This document shows, piece after piece, positions 8,048 through 61,260 of a stretch of DNA of 64,000 bases. The translations under genes and the position numbers were made by a program. Position 1 is the stretch's first letter; each line of letters opens with the position of its first letter. The stretch lies in the NCBI GenBank assembly GCA_005786805.1, contig SYCV01000112.1:1-64000 (forward strand), in the 5' to 3' direction. The DNA comes from Planctomycetia bacterium (lineage in GTDB: Bacteria; Planctomycetota; Planctomycetia; Gemmatales; Gemmataceae). A model generated the notes under the pieces. It was not told the origin of the DNA, did not search any database, and saw only the letters and a program-made list of their open reading frames with translations.

Positions 8048-8839
8048 ATGCAAAAGCTTTCTTACTCTGAGTTGCTAAAACAGATCGAGTTGAACCTTGA
8101 ATGCCTGAAGCTTTCGGGGATTGATTGGGTCGGGAAAACCATTGGCAATGACGGTTTATTAAATGTCAAAGATCCGCAAATCCCTAACCAACTTTCCAAT
8201 CCAGTTGATCTGAAAGCCATCAAATTAAATCCAAGTCAACCTGCAAAAACCGAATTGACGATTTTAAAAAGAGGGGAGCTTCTGGAGTCACTGAAAGCTG
8301 AGGTTAAGGATTGTGGTAAATGCACCCAGTTGGTAAAAACCAGAAAATCAGTGGTATTTGGTGGTGGTAAGATTGAGGCTGAGATTTGTTTTATCGGTGA
8401 GGCGCCTGGTATTGCGGAGGATGAAAAAGGGGAACCCTTTGTTGGTGAAGCAGGTGCATTGCTAGACAAAATCCTGATTGCTTCGGGATTGAAACGGAGT
8501 GATGCTTATTTTTTAAACATTATTCGATGTTTACCCCCCGAAAACCGACTGCCCTTGCCTGTTGAAGTTTCAAATTGCAGTGGGTTTTTAGAAAGACAAA
8601 TATCGTTAGTCAGCCCTAAGCTTATCTGCTGCCTTGGATCTTGTGCTGCGGAATATATTCTTAACAGCAAAATTCCAGTAAGCAAGTTGCGAGGCAGATT
8701 ACATGATTGGAATGGGATTCCTGTTTTATGCACATATCATCCCGCGGTTTTAATACGAAATCCTGAGAAGAAAAGAGATGTGTGGGAAGATATGAAATTC
8801 ATGATAGCCTACCTTGGTAGATCGCTACCGGCAACCTAA
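8048..8839 (+). CDS. Uracil-DNA glycosylase, family 4 (4Fe-4S type)
   Basis: Removes uracil from DNA to start base-excision repair. Family-4 enzymes carry a 4Fe-4S cluster; the expected four cysteines are Cys89 and Cys92 (C-x2-C), Cys161 and Cys177. The active-site motif GEAPG is at 117-121, 'GEPFVGEAG' follows, and the DNA-intercalating HP motif is 'YHPAVLIRNP' (230-239). Residues 1-80 are an N-terminal extension without recognisable motifs. The start at 8048 has AGG 8 nt upstream. Its stop directly abuts the stop of the convergent kinase-like gene with no spacer. Confidence 0.92.
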   Translation: MQKLSYSELLKQIELNLECLKLSGIDWVGKTIGNDGLLNVKDPQIPNQLSNPVDLKAIKLNPSQPAKTELTILKRGELLESLKAEVKDCGKCTQLVKTRKSVVFGGGKIEAEICFIGEAPGIAEDEKGEPFVGEAGALLDKILIASGLKRSDAYFLNIIRCLPPENRLPLPVEVSNCSGFLERQISLVSPKLICCLGSCAAEYILNSKIPVSKLRGRLHDWNGIPVLCTYHPAVLIRNPEKKRDVWEDMKFMIAYLGRSLPAT

Positions 8840-10246
8840 TCATGCCTTTTCATAGGCAAGGATTTGCTCCATCACAAGTGAGAAATCAATCGGTTTTTCT
8901 ATGAAAGTGTTCCCGTGTCTTGCGGGAATATTTATCGGTTTCCTTCCTTTCAAAAGGAATACTGTATGCAGTGTGAGCCTGCGCATTTCTGATTCGTTGA
9001 CAATTTTTGTAAAAGCGTCCTTGATTGAGAGATAATTATCCAATTCCAAAATAAGATGCCTGAAGGGCTCCCGCTTGTAAACATCCAAGGCCTGGGAAAG
9101 ATTGTTTGCCTGTAAAATTCTAAAACCCCTGTTTTGCATGTAAGCTTTGATCAAAGTTTTGTTTTTATCGCTGTTCATAACCAGAAAAATGGTGGATTCT
9201 TTTCCATCGCTATTATTGAGGTAATCGGCTTTTATTTTTTTTTGTATGGCTTGTATTGCGATTTGAACCTGGATGAAATCGGTATATCGAGATTTTGGAT
9301 CCAATGAAATCATGTTCTTTATCACGCCCAAGATTTCTGATGGAAGTGTTTTTTCAAATTCCTTGTTGAACATGAGGGTGAATTCATCACTGTTGTACAT
9401 TTTTTTTCTTTTTTGGTAGGAACCGGGAAGGAGTGATTTTCCAGTAAGCATGTGATAAAAAAGGCATCCTGCAAAAAAAATATCCGACTGGCTGTTACTA
9501 GGGGTTTTTTTTGTATGCCTAGCAAGTCCTGAATAATCAAATGATAAATCAGGTTGGCTTTGAATTTTACCTGTTTTGGGATCAAAAATAGTTCCGTAAC
9601 GAAAATTGTTAAGTTTTGGTTGAGAATGATTTTCAAATAAAATCTTAGTTCCAGATAAATTTCCATGGGTTATTCCCAGCTTTTGAAAAAAAACAAGTGT
9701 TTTGCTAATTTCCTCCATGATAAGGCAAGCTTCAGGGCAACTTAAAAAAGTCTTGACCTCAAGCCAATCGTAAATGGAACCACCTCTTACCCATTCCATG
9801 GAAAAATAAGGTGGAGTATTCCCGTTTCCTGTTGATAAATCCAATGTTTTTATAATGTTGGGATGATCAATATCTTTCAAAATTTCCGCTTGTCTTAAAA
9901 AATTTAAAGTTTCAAATTCATCGCCAAGGTGCCTTTTACGAAGTACCTTCAAGGCCACAGTTTCCCCGGTATCAATTTTCTTTGCTTTATAAAGTCTTCC
10001 TAATTTTCCAAAACCAATTGGGCCAAGTAGTTGGTAACCATCAAATAAAAGTAAAGACCCCTCGCCTGCAACAATTTTGCTGATTTGCCAAGGTGTTAAA
10101 TAATTATTTTGAATTAATATTTTTGGATCAATGAATCGATTTTCAGCAGTCCCTATCTGGGAAAGAATATCCATTACATTAAAATGCGAAATTAATCCCA
10201 GTTTTTCGGTTAAATGAACCAAACCTGTAAACTCTTCGATTTCCAT
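8840..10246 (-). CDS. Pseudokinase fused to a receiver-like domain
   Basis: A 468-residue cytoplasmic protein with three parts. Residues 1-65 resemble the pre-kinase segment of planctomycete Ser/Thr kinases ('NYLTPWQISKIVAGE'). Residues 70-335 have a protein-kinase fold: the glycine loop (78-83) and Lys100 in VALK are kept, but the alpha-C Glu is Gln119, HRD is HGN (194-196), the Mg-binding Asn of that loop is Lys201 and DFG reads NNF (213-215). It therefore probably cannot phosphorylate, though it may bind nucleotide. Residues 352-466 look like a CheY-type receiver ('FLVMNSDKNKTLIKAYMQNRGF', Lys451 in EKPID), but the acidic pocket reads NS and the phosphoacceptor position is not clearly an Asp. 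Role unknown; a phosphorylation-independent scaffold is inference. Confidence 0.82.
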   Translation of the reverse strand: MEIEEFTGLVHLTEKLGLISHFNVMDILSQIGTAENRFIDPKILIQNNYLTPWQISKIVAGEGSLLLFDGYQLLGPIGFGKLGRLYKAKKIDTGETVALKVLRKRHLGDEFETLNFLRQAEILKDIDHPNIIKTLDLSTGNGNTPPYFSMEWVRGGSIYDWLEVKTFLSCPEACLIMEEISKTLVFFQKLGITHGNLSGTKILFENHSQPKLNNFRYGTIFDPKTGKIQSQPDLSFDYSGLARHTKKTPSNSQSDIFFAGCLFYHMLTGKSLLPGSYQKRKKMYNSDEFTLMFNKEFEKTLPSEILGVIKNMISLDPKSRYTDFIQVQIAIQAIQKKIKADYLNNSDGKESTIFLVMNSDKNKTLIKAYMQNRGFRILQANNLSQALDVYKREPFRHLILELDNYLSIKDAFTKIVNESEMRRLTLHTVFLLKGRKPINIPARHGNTFIEKPIDFSLVMEQILAYEKA

Positions 10247-10486: not shown

Positions 10487-11290
10487 ATGGGGTTCTATAA
10501 AAATTGGGCGAATAAGCGTTTTTTTATGCGATCCATGTTTTTTGGATTGCTGATAACTGCCCCAGGTTGTGCATCTTTTTGGGATTCTGTGACAAGCCGG
10601 GAATTTAGAGTTAAAAACCTTTTTATGCCTCCTGAACCGCCCATGGTTGTGCTGGAAAAAAGCGTTGATGGTGATAAACGGGCCGTTGCACTTGCGTCAT
10701 TAAAAGAACCTATGGCTAATAAAGGAACCGCGGAAGAGCAGGAGAAGGTTTTTAAAGTGCTTTCGGATGCCGCACTAATTGATCGTCAAGCGATTTGCAG
10801 GCTTCAAGCAATATCAACTTTAAGAAATTTTAAAGATTCACGCACCCCGGAGGTGTTGAAAGACGCTTACTATCGGGCATCTAATTTTAATCCTGAAACA
10901 GCCACGGTTATCAAGTGCCAGGTGTTGAATTCCCTTGGTGAGGTTCGAAGTCCTTCCGGGCTGGAATTGCTTGTAAAAGTTTTGAAGGAACCCGCGGTTG
11001 TGGGTTCAGAACAGGATAGGCAGCAAAAGATTGATGAAAGGATAATTGCGGCTAAATCCCTTGGTAAGTACAAGGAATATCAAGCTTCTGAAAGTTTATT
11101 ATCTGTTCTTCAAAGCGAGCAGGATGTTGCCCTGGTCAATTGTTGCAGGGATTCTTTGCAGGCGATCACGGGAAAAGATTTTCCAGCAAATTACGAGCTA
11201 TGGGCCAAGTACTTGCATGACTCTTCGAATAAGAATCAAAAGCCGGGGTTTTTCGAAAGAATATTTTTAACATCCGGGTCTGGCAAATAA
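10487..11290 (+). CDS. Putative lipoprotein with HEAT-like helical repeats
   Basis: A 267-residue predicted exported protein. Residues 12-30 carry a basic/hydrophobic signal with a lipobox-like 'ITAPGCAS' whose Cys28 would be lipidated; Pro at -2 is unusual, so lipidation is probable rather than certain. The body is alpha-helical with repeated '.A..SL......A...L' units ('RLQAISTLRNFKDSRTPEVL', 'CQVLNSLGEVRSPSGLELLVKVL', 'AAKSLGKYKEYQASESLLSVL') typical of HEAT-like repeats, a protein-binding fold. Function unknown. The stop abuts the stop of the convergent PQQ-type gene with no spacer. A start at ATG 10526 is possible, but neither ATG has a clear ribosome binding site. Confidence 0.75.
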   Translation: MGFYKNWANKRFFMRSMFFGLLITAPGCASFWDSVTSREFRVKNLFMPPEPPMVVLEKSVDGDKRAVALASLKEPMANKGTAEEQEKVFKVLSDAALIDRQAICRLQAISTLRNFKDSRTPEVLKDAYYRASNFNPETATVIKCQVLNSLGEVRSPSGLELLVKVLKEPAVVGSEQDRQQKIDERIIAAKSLGKYKEYQASESLLSVLQSEQDVALVNCCRDSLQAITGKDFPANYELWAKYLHDSSNKNQKPGFFERIFLTSGSGK

Positions 11291-59862: not shown

Positions 59863-61260
59863 ATGAGTCTGCAAAATATTGAATGTCCAACATCAGAAAT
59901 CCTTTATAAATGTGTTTATAACGAACTTCCTGCTGCTGAAAATGAGTCGGTAAAAATGCATGTGAAAACTTGCCCCAAGTGTCGAGCATCATTTACCGCT
60001 ATCCTCAAAGAGAAAGTTGGGAAAGAAACACAGGGACTTGATTCAAAGCCCCAATCAGTTTCAGAACAAAAGTCCGATTCAAATACAAAAAGCCCTGAAA
60101 ATGTTGTTTCACAAAATCCTGAGAAGTCTCAATCATCAACTCCGCTAAGGACTGTGGCGCCCCAATTTAAGCCAGCATACCCTTTTCTTGAACCGCCTAC
60201 AAAAGCCGGGAGTCTCGGATGTTTGGGCGATTATGAGCTTGTGCGTGTGCTTGGAGAAGGTGGAATGGGAATTGTATTCGAAGCTGACGATAGGAAATTG
60301 GACAGAAAAGTTGCACTTAAAGTTTTGCGGCCTGAATTGACTGATGAAAATTTCCGTCAGCGTTTCGAGAGAGAAGCTAAAATTTCAAGTAGTTTACAAG
60401 ATGACAATATTTGTCTGGTTTACCAAGCAGGGGCTCATAATTCCGTCTCGTTCATGGCGATGGAATTTTTGAAAGGTGAAAATCTTGAGGATAAGCTTAA
60501 GAGGGATGGCTGGCTTCCGGTACCGGTTATATTCAAGATTGCCAAACAAATCGCGTTGGGGCTTGCAACCGCTCATGAAAAAAAATTAATTCACCGGGAT
60601 ATCAAACCAGCAAATATTTGGCTTGAGTCAAGTGGCTCTGAAGGTGATTTTAAAAGGGTGAAAATTCTTGATTTTGGCTTGGCGAAATCCACTGAGGTTG
60701 AAAGCAACCTCACTGCGAAAGGTATGATTGTTGGGACACCAAACTACATGGCACCCGAGCAAATTTGTGGCGAGCCATTGGATGAAAGGGCTGATTTGTT
60801 CAGTCTTGGTTGTGTCATGTATCGCATGTTGTCCGGGAAAATCCCTTTCGAAAAAGAAAACACCCTTGCAGTTCTTCATGCAGTCGTTGAATCAGAGATT
60901 CCATCCTTGAATGAAATGGACCAAAAACTTCCCAAGGAAGTCTATGGCTTGATGACAAAACTGCTTTGTAAAGATCCATCTGGAAGGCCCGCAACTGCAA
61001 GAAAAGTTGTCGCCATGATCGAAGCGATTGAAAACAGTGGATTTCAAAACCAAAGCAGCAAGGCATTAAGTTCTATGCTCTTCAAAGCTCCTGCCATTCA
61101 AATGCAGAAAAAAGGGAAAGTTCCAGTCGGGGCGATTATTGGTGGTTCTGCGATTTTGGCTGCGGTTGTGATTGGTTTGATAATCCTGGTTTTCAGATAT
61201 ATGAATCCCTCAGATTCTGAACCTGATGCAAAACCTAATGTCGAAAAAAAATCCAAATGA
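59863..61260 (+). CDS. Transmembrane Ser/Thr protein kinase with N-terminal zinc finger
   Basis: A 465-residue protein. Residues 1-48 hold an anti-sigma-type zinc finger with His33, Cys37 and Cys40 (HVKTCPKC). A Ser/Pro-rich linker follows. The Pkn2-type kinase domain (~124-385) is complete: 'GEGGMGIVFEA', Lys153 (VALK), Glu171, HRD 244-246, Asn251, DFG 270-272 and 'GTPNYMAPEQ'. Residues ~414-437 form one transmembrane helix, leaving only a short tail outside, so there is no sensor domain beyond the membrane. AAGGTG lies 6 nt before the ATG. The bestrophin gene follows after 54 nt. Substrate unknown. Confidence 0.92.
   Translation: MSLQNIECPTSEILYKCVYNELPAAENESVKMHVKTCPKCRASFTAILKEKVGKETQGLDSKPQSVSEQKSDSNTKSPENVVSQNPEKSQSSTPLRTVAPQFKPAYPFLEPPTKAGSLGCLGDYELVRVLGEGGMGIVFEADDRKLDRKVALKVLRPELTDENFRQRFEREAKISSSLQDDNICLVYQAGAHNSVSFMAMEFLKGENLEDKLKRDGWLPVPVIFKIAKQIALGLATAHEKKLIHRDIKPANIWLESSGSEGDFKRVKILDFGLAKSTEVESNLTAKGMIVGTPNYMAPEQICGEPLDERADLFSLGCVMYRMLSGKIPFEKENTLAVLHAVVESEIPSLNEMDQKLPKEVYGLMTKLLCKDPSGRPATARKVVAMIEAIENSGFQNQSSKALSSMLFKAPAIQMQKKGKVPVGAIIGGSAILAAVVIGLIILVFRYMNPSDSEPDAKPNVEKKSK

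Follow-up and report, generated by a model that had tools for sequence, protein, structure and literature searches.

The window, the whole 64,000-nucleotide stretch of planctomycete DNA analyzed here, carries at 8840..10246 (-) a gene with an ATG start and a 468-aa open reading frame, whose product falls into three parts. An N-terminal module of ~66 aa (10049..10246, -), delimited by orthologue alignment, includes residues L18, T51, and Q54, which are retained across nearly all orthologues. It is followed by a protein-kinase fold (residues 69-340; 9227..10042, -) and a receiver-like domain (residues 351-466; 8849..9196, -), the latter assigned from PF00072 matches in family members and weak NCBIfam receiver matches in the window protein itself. 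The kinase fold, described as clear in the initial annotation, is indeed so: a Pfam profile search aligns residues 71-322 to positions 1-253 of the 263 in PF00069 (E = 9.4e-32), as for a Hanks-type fold, and solved bacterial and eukaryotic kinases in the PDB match the protein with E values of up to 3e-20. An AlphaFold2 model of the protein from a three-sequence alignment was uninformative (pLDDT 43, pTM 0.29).

The gene is flanked by a convergent uracil-DNA-glycosylase-like gene (UDG; 8048..8839, +) and a divergent gene for a HEAT-repeat-like protein (10487..11290, +). The labels of these and the other neighbors come from reading the sequences, without profile searches. The gene order in the window, UDG > < kinase > HEAT < PQQ < TadA > M24, is repeated in the genus and in its sister genus, represented by genome G034; the conserved neighbors are convergent or divergent to the pseudokinase gene and do not form an operon with it. 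The HEAT-repeat-like protein has a lipobox-like cysteine, and its gene adjoins the kinase gene in the family's two dead lineages as well as in some intact ones. A second kinase in the window (59863-61260, +) has intact HRD and DFG motifs; its N-terminus has a CxxC/zinc-finger-like segment, and toward the C-terminus it carries a hydrophobic stretch that probably lies in the membrane.

Replacement of the catalytic residues

The register of the kinase motifs was set by alignment with 93 intact orthologues. The Gly-rich loop PIGFGKLGRLY (residues 76-86; 9989..10021, -) keeps G78, G80, and G83, and the β3 ATP-binding lysine, K100 of the VALK motif (9947..9949, -), is also kept, both as read initially and as supported by comparison across the genus. 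The substitutions described for HRD, the αC glutamate, and the Mg-binding asparagine hold in the alignment as well. Q119 (9890..9892, -) occupies the αC position that is a glutamate in 93 of the 93 intact orthologues aligned; within the catalytic loop HGNLSGTK (residues 194-201; 9644..9667, -), HRD has become H194-G195-N196, the catalytic lysine S198, and the metal-binding asparagine K201. The reading of DFG as NNF (N213, N214, F215) was off by one residue, and orthologue alignment places the true triplet at N214, F215, and R216 (NFR; 9599..9607, -), with the phenylalanine retained and the glycine replaced by arginine. Overall, three acidic catalytic residues are replaced by their amide counterparts and two metal-site positions by basic residues. 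The retained H194 and F215 are regulatory-spine residues. Y238 in the P+1-loop motif DYxGL (9533..9535, -) and D255 at the start of the αF helix (9482..9484, -) are invariant across intact and dead orthologues.

Lysine is thus the only member kept of the set that marks an active Ser/Thr kinase (β3 Lys, αC Glu, HRD Asp, metal Asn, and DFG Asp), and two of the three residues used to define a pseudokinase (β3 Lys, HRD Asp, and DFG Asp) are lost in eight genomes, under purifying selection. Among 31 kinases examined in the genome, this is the only one without the catalytic aspartates; the other 30 keep them all. Because the motif changes are common to all seven genomes of the genus, are mostly found in the sister genus too, and are unique among the 31 kinases, they are not due to chance. 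A loss of phosphotransfer, as first proposed, is well supported by these substitutions. Kinase-like folds without canonical residues can catalyze other reactions, as in the case of CASK (PMC4718504), and the retained Gly loop and K100 would suit an enzyme that performs metal-independent phosphotransfer or other transferase chemistry in the manner of CASK or SelO. We consider this very unlikely for the window protein, however, given that all the acids that could act as base or metal ligands are amides or bases (Q119, N196, K201, and N214) and that K100 is also lost in g22, a genus of the same family considered below.

The receiver-like domain had been read as lacking its acidic pocket while keeping the conserved lysine of a KP motif. 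The acidic pair is indeed replaced, by M357 and N358 (9173..9178, -) according to genus comparison and alignment, but one acid stays: E401 (9044..9046, -), which takes the place of the phospho-acceptor aspartate and is fixed in the genus and sister genus. The lysine, K451, is present in the window species only, with threonine in all five genus siblings that have a readable C-terminus. With the Met-Asn pair, E401, a leucine at the Thr/Ser site, and a lysine absent from siblings, the domain does not have the makeup of a phosphorylatable receiver. Profile searches, which matched the kinase domain, gave no PF00072 match in the window protein alone up to an E value of 1, whereas PF00072 matches 22 of 31 family members (best 3.9e-9). 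In the intact kinases the receiver has one glutamate in place of the acidic pair, the phospho-acceptor aspartate is mostly present, and the lysine is often replaced. Since the receiver is already degenerate in intact kinases, its decay and that of the kinase domain were not simultaneous.

Intact orthologues at the same locus

Beyond the genus and its sister genus, an intact three-part orthologue occurs once per genome; in the family 93 of 95 genomes match, the weakest being kinase-only matches. A class-wide search matched 230 of 249 genomes at E ≤ 1e-60, nearly always with a single copy, and in a phylum-wide sample only 7 of 149 genomes matched, every one a class member. The orthologue of the window gene is therefore a near-universal, single-copy, class-restricted kinase-receiver protein. 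We read the motifs of 123 orthologues outside the dead lineages, 93 from the family and nearby groups and 30 from other class members, the latter picked from the weakest scores to seek further losses. All 123 are intact, with K, E, HRD, N, and the DFG Asp kept at 98.5-100%, and are thus predicted to be catalytically intact kinases. In G018, no clear class-wide kinase-receiver orthologue was found in a search of the genome; a candidate there, L225 (G018:C33:7320-8750), is an open frame of 846 aa in which an intact kinase is joined to a receiver and an HD-GYP-like domain, and was rejected as a different intact kinase-receiver-HD-GYP fusion.

The intact orthologues (for example, G016 C4:440867-442309) share the N-terminal module, the kinase, the receiver-like domain, and the single copy per genome with the window protein. 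They differ in having the Glu, HRD, Asn, and DFG intact and the phospho-acceptor aspartate mostly kept, and show 28% identity to it. In several genera they also occupy the same locus: UDG-kinase-HEAT in G020, where both neighbors of the window gene are in the same place; amidase-UDG-kinase in G016, G012, and G030; and UDG-kinase in G021, G023, G032, and G056. This shared position makes the pseudokinase a positional orthologue of the intact kinases rather than an extra copy, and a search of its genome found no closer intact copy of the window kinase.

HGN and NFR are fixed in the genus and in G034, and HRD and DFG are intact in the orthologues read outside the dead lineages. The dead motifs are present in seven of seven genomes of the genus (67-69% identity), together with the Gly loop, K100, the fold residues, and an open frame that is full-length in every copy except that of G001, which ends at a contig end. 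At 40% identity, G034 has HGN, Gln for Glu, NFR, and an Arg at the metal Asn. Most assemblies of the genus are fragmented, including that of the window genome (259 contigs), which could raise the suspicion of an assembly artefact or a recent pseudogene in one metagenome-assembled genome. The agreement of seven genomes and a sister genus, the frames that are full-length apart from G001, and the conserved synteny refute that explanation, to which we assign almost no weight.

Selection was assessed from pairwise dN/dS values (NG86), in which dS > 1 is saturated, and we relied on the L041-L044 pairs alone. For these unsaturated pairs dN/dS of the whole protein is 0.08-0.16 (median 0.12), with 0.08-0.15 for the kinase part versus 0.06-0.14 for the receiver part, and the median lies between the values for the neighboring UDG (0.14) and PQQ (0.09) genes. 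The gene, dead kinase domain included, is kept by purifying selection. The initial annotation had held that intact orthologues would mark this gene as a decayed copy. The intact state is ancestral, yet every genome of the genus has the dead motifs at this one locus and dN/dS is about 0.1, and so the gene is not a decayed copy. The stem branches of the dead lineages are very long (2.75 and 2.93 changes per site), the stem leading to the dead lineage of the window having 2.75 versus 0.22 in rpoB; such a stem is as expected if the protein changed its function, or if constraint was relaxed, once catalysis had been lost.

Repeated loss of catalysis

In genus g22 the Gly loop is gone, the β3 lysine is Ile, the αC glutamate is Ala, and DFG has become EWA, LWA, or LWG; HRD is retained in two species and is HGN in the third. 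The g22 receiver stays close to the receivers of the intact orthologues in the alignment. The HEAT-PQQ-TadA-M24 synteny common to the dead lineages g1, g29, and g22 had suggested a single loss. In the rpoB tree, however, g22 nests with the intact G030 and G020, away from g1 and G034, and one loss common to the three lineages was rejected by an rpoB AU test (p = 0.0011). Counting two losses here assumes that the rpoB tree reflects the species tree and that intact kinases are the ancestral condition.

A further case lies in another family. G120 (L226; genus g60) has HGA, an Arg at the metal Asn, and no Gly loop, with VALK and DFG kept. Three sister species of G120 in g60 (L227/G138, L228/G228, and L229/G198) have a 192-aa receiver-only open reading frame instead, with 57-60% identity to G120 and placed directly downstream of a gene resembling the upstream neighbor of G120. 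In G138 the gap between the two is ~80 bases, too short to accommodate a kinase domain. The stand-alone pseudoreceiver of the g60 sisters is thus identified, from its similarity and position, as a remnant after deletion of the kinase domain at the orthologous locus. The motifs indicate that catalysis has been lost independently at least three times, once ending in excision of the kinase domain. Three is a minimum, counted over the orthologues whose motifs were read, with more than 100 others in the class.

These lineages bear on whether the kinase domain of the window protein is simply in decay and about to be lost, with the function residing in the receiver-like domain. The complete deletion of the kinase domain in three g60 species that retain the receiver, the absence of the Gly loop and lysine in g22 beside a receiver close to intact ones, and the very long stems of 2.75 and 2.93 changes per site would all fit such decay. 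In the window genus, however, the kinase part is constrained like the receiver part, and seven of seven genomes keep the frame open and retain K100, the Gly loop, and the residues of the fold; we accordingly judge decay improbable, though the most serious of the alternatives.

A proposed non-catalytic role and its possible mechanism

The reading we favor, at a probability of roughly three in four, is that the window protein is a lineage-fixed pseudokinase, a same-locus descendant of an intact class-wide kinase-receiver protein, kept for a non-catalytic role. Its ancestor would have been a catalytically intact Ser/Thr kinase fused to a degenerate receiver at the same locus. That the same protein lost catalysis in at least two other lineages suggests a real job without need for kinase activity. 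With the gene under purifying selection, a scaffold or allosteric role, already put forward in the initial annotation, is the best inference left. Such a protein may bind a partner through a conserved kinase surface (Y238, D255/F258/G260, and R320) together with the receiver-like domain. Seven positions that are nearly invariant in the intact set (Q54, H194, Y238, D255, F258, G260, and R320) are unchanged in all dead kinases; they belong to the fold, the P+1 loop, and αF, as expected if a binding surface were kept. Against this reading, the long stems also show much relaxed or changed constraint.

The pseudokinase may in addition adopt a conformation that is ATP-competent and has its spine assembled, with K201 and R216 contacting the phosphates in place of Mg2+. 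In STRADα, His200 and Arg215 contact the β-phosphate in place of Mg2+ (PMC2686265); His200 corresponds to the K201 site and Arg215 to the R216 site, the HRD Asp is lost in both proteins, and the two positions are basic throughout the window genus (K201 and R216) and in G034 (Arg and Arg). Unlike the window protein, STRADα is eukaryotic, has Arg for the β3 lysine, keeps the catalytic-loop lysine, lacks a receiver, and has MO25 and LKB1 as partners. Mg-independent nucleotide binding by the window lineage is plausible by this analogy. Counting against it, the catalytic-loop lysine that contacts the γ-phosphate in STRADα is Ser in the window genus, and the loss of the lysine at the K100 position in g22 means that nucleotide binding is no shared requirement of the dead lineages.

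Bacterial pseudokinases were reviewed recently (PMC12599244); that account covers ActPs1-3, GLW, CP1, DYD, and DLHK and describes MviN (ActPs3) as a phospho-regulated scaffold. The reviewed proteins share a Hanks-type fold and lost catalytic residues with the window protein, but as described there none of GLW, CP1, ActPs3/MviN, DYD, and DLHK combines HGN/NFR with an intact Gly loop and lysine or has a receiver-like C-terminus. The GLW family has GLW for HRD and a hydrophobic residue for the β3 lysine, where the window protein has HGN and VALK; the CP1 family has a linked COG3899 ATPase domain, absent from the 468 aa here; and ActPs3/MviN has wholly degraded catalytic motifs and an activation-loop deletion, whereas VALK and the Gly loop are kept in the window protein and the alignment has no activation-loop deletion peculiar to it. 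DYD and DLHK, with HRD and/or DFG canonical and the ATP motif divergent, are the opposite of a protein that lost HRD and DFG and kept the lysine (PMC12599244). Judged by these motifs, the window protein appears to be a bacterial pseudokinase that does not fit any of the five published families compared. The terms receiver and planctomyc are absent from that review, a study of Planctomycetota kinases sorted them by K-D-D residues in a text without pseudokinases or receiver domains (PMC11032199), and we found no description of this kinase-receiver family in the open-access literature.

More tentatively, the family as a whole may be a core class-specific scaffold in which catalysis is dispensable and disappeared on three or more occasions through different sets of substitutions, once with the kinase excised, and the window lineage a STRAD-like, metal-independent, nucleotide-gated scaffold that arose as its three catalytic acids became amides and two metal-site positions became basic; we hold this broader proposal to be possible but doubtful. 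To our knowledge, pseudokinases of bacteria have received little study, and it is rare for their descent from active kinases to be resolved. In the present case, living relatives display every stage: the kin of the active ancestor, the shared locus, three or more independent losses, and even an end state from which the kinase has been deleted. These natural variants make the non-catalytic role of a kinase directly testable, and the K201/R216 pattern, by analogy, predicts that bacteria may have converged on the STRADα mode of ATP binding.
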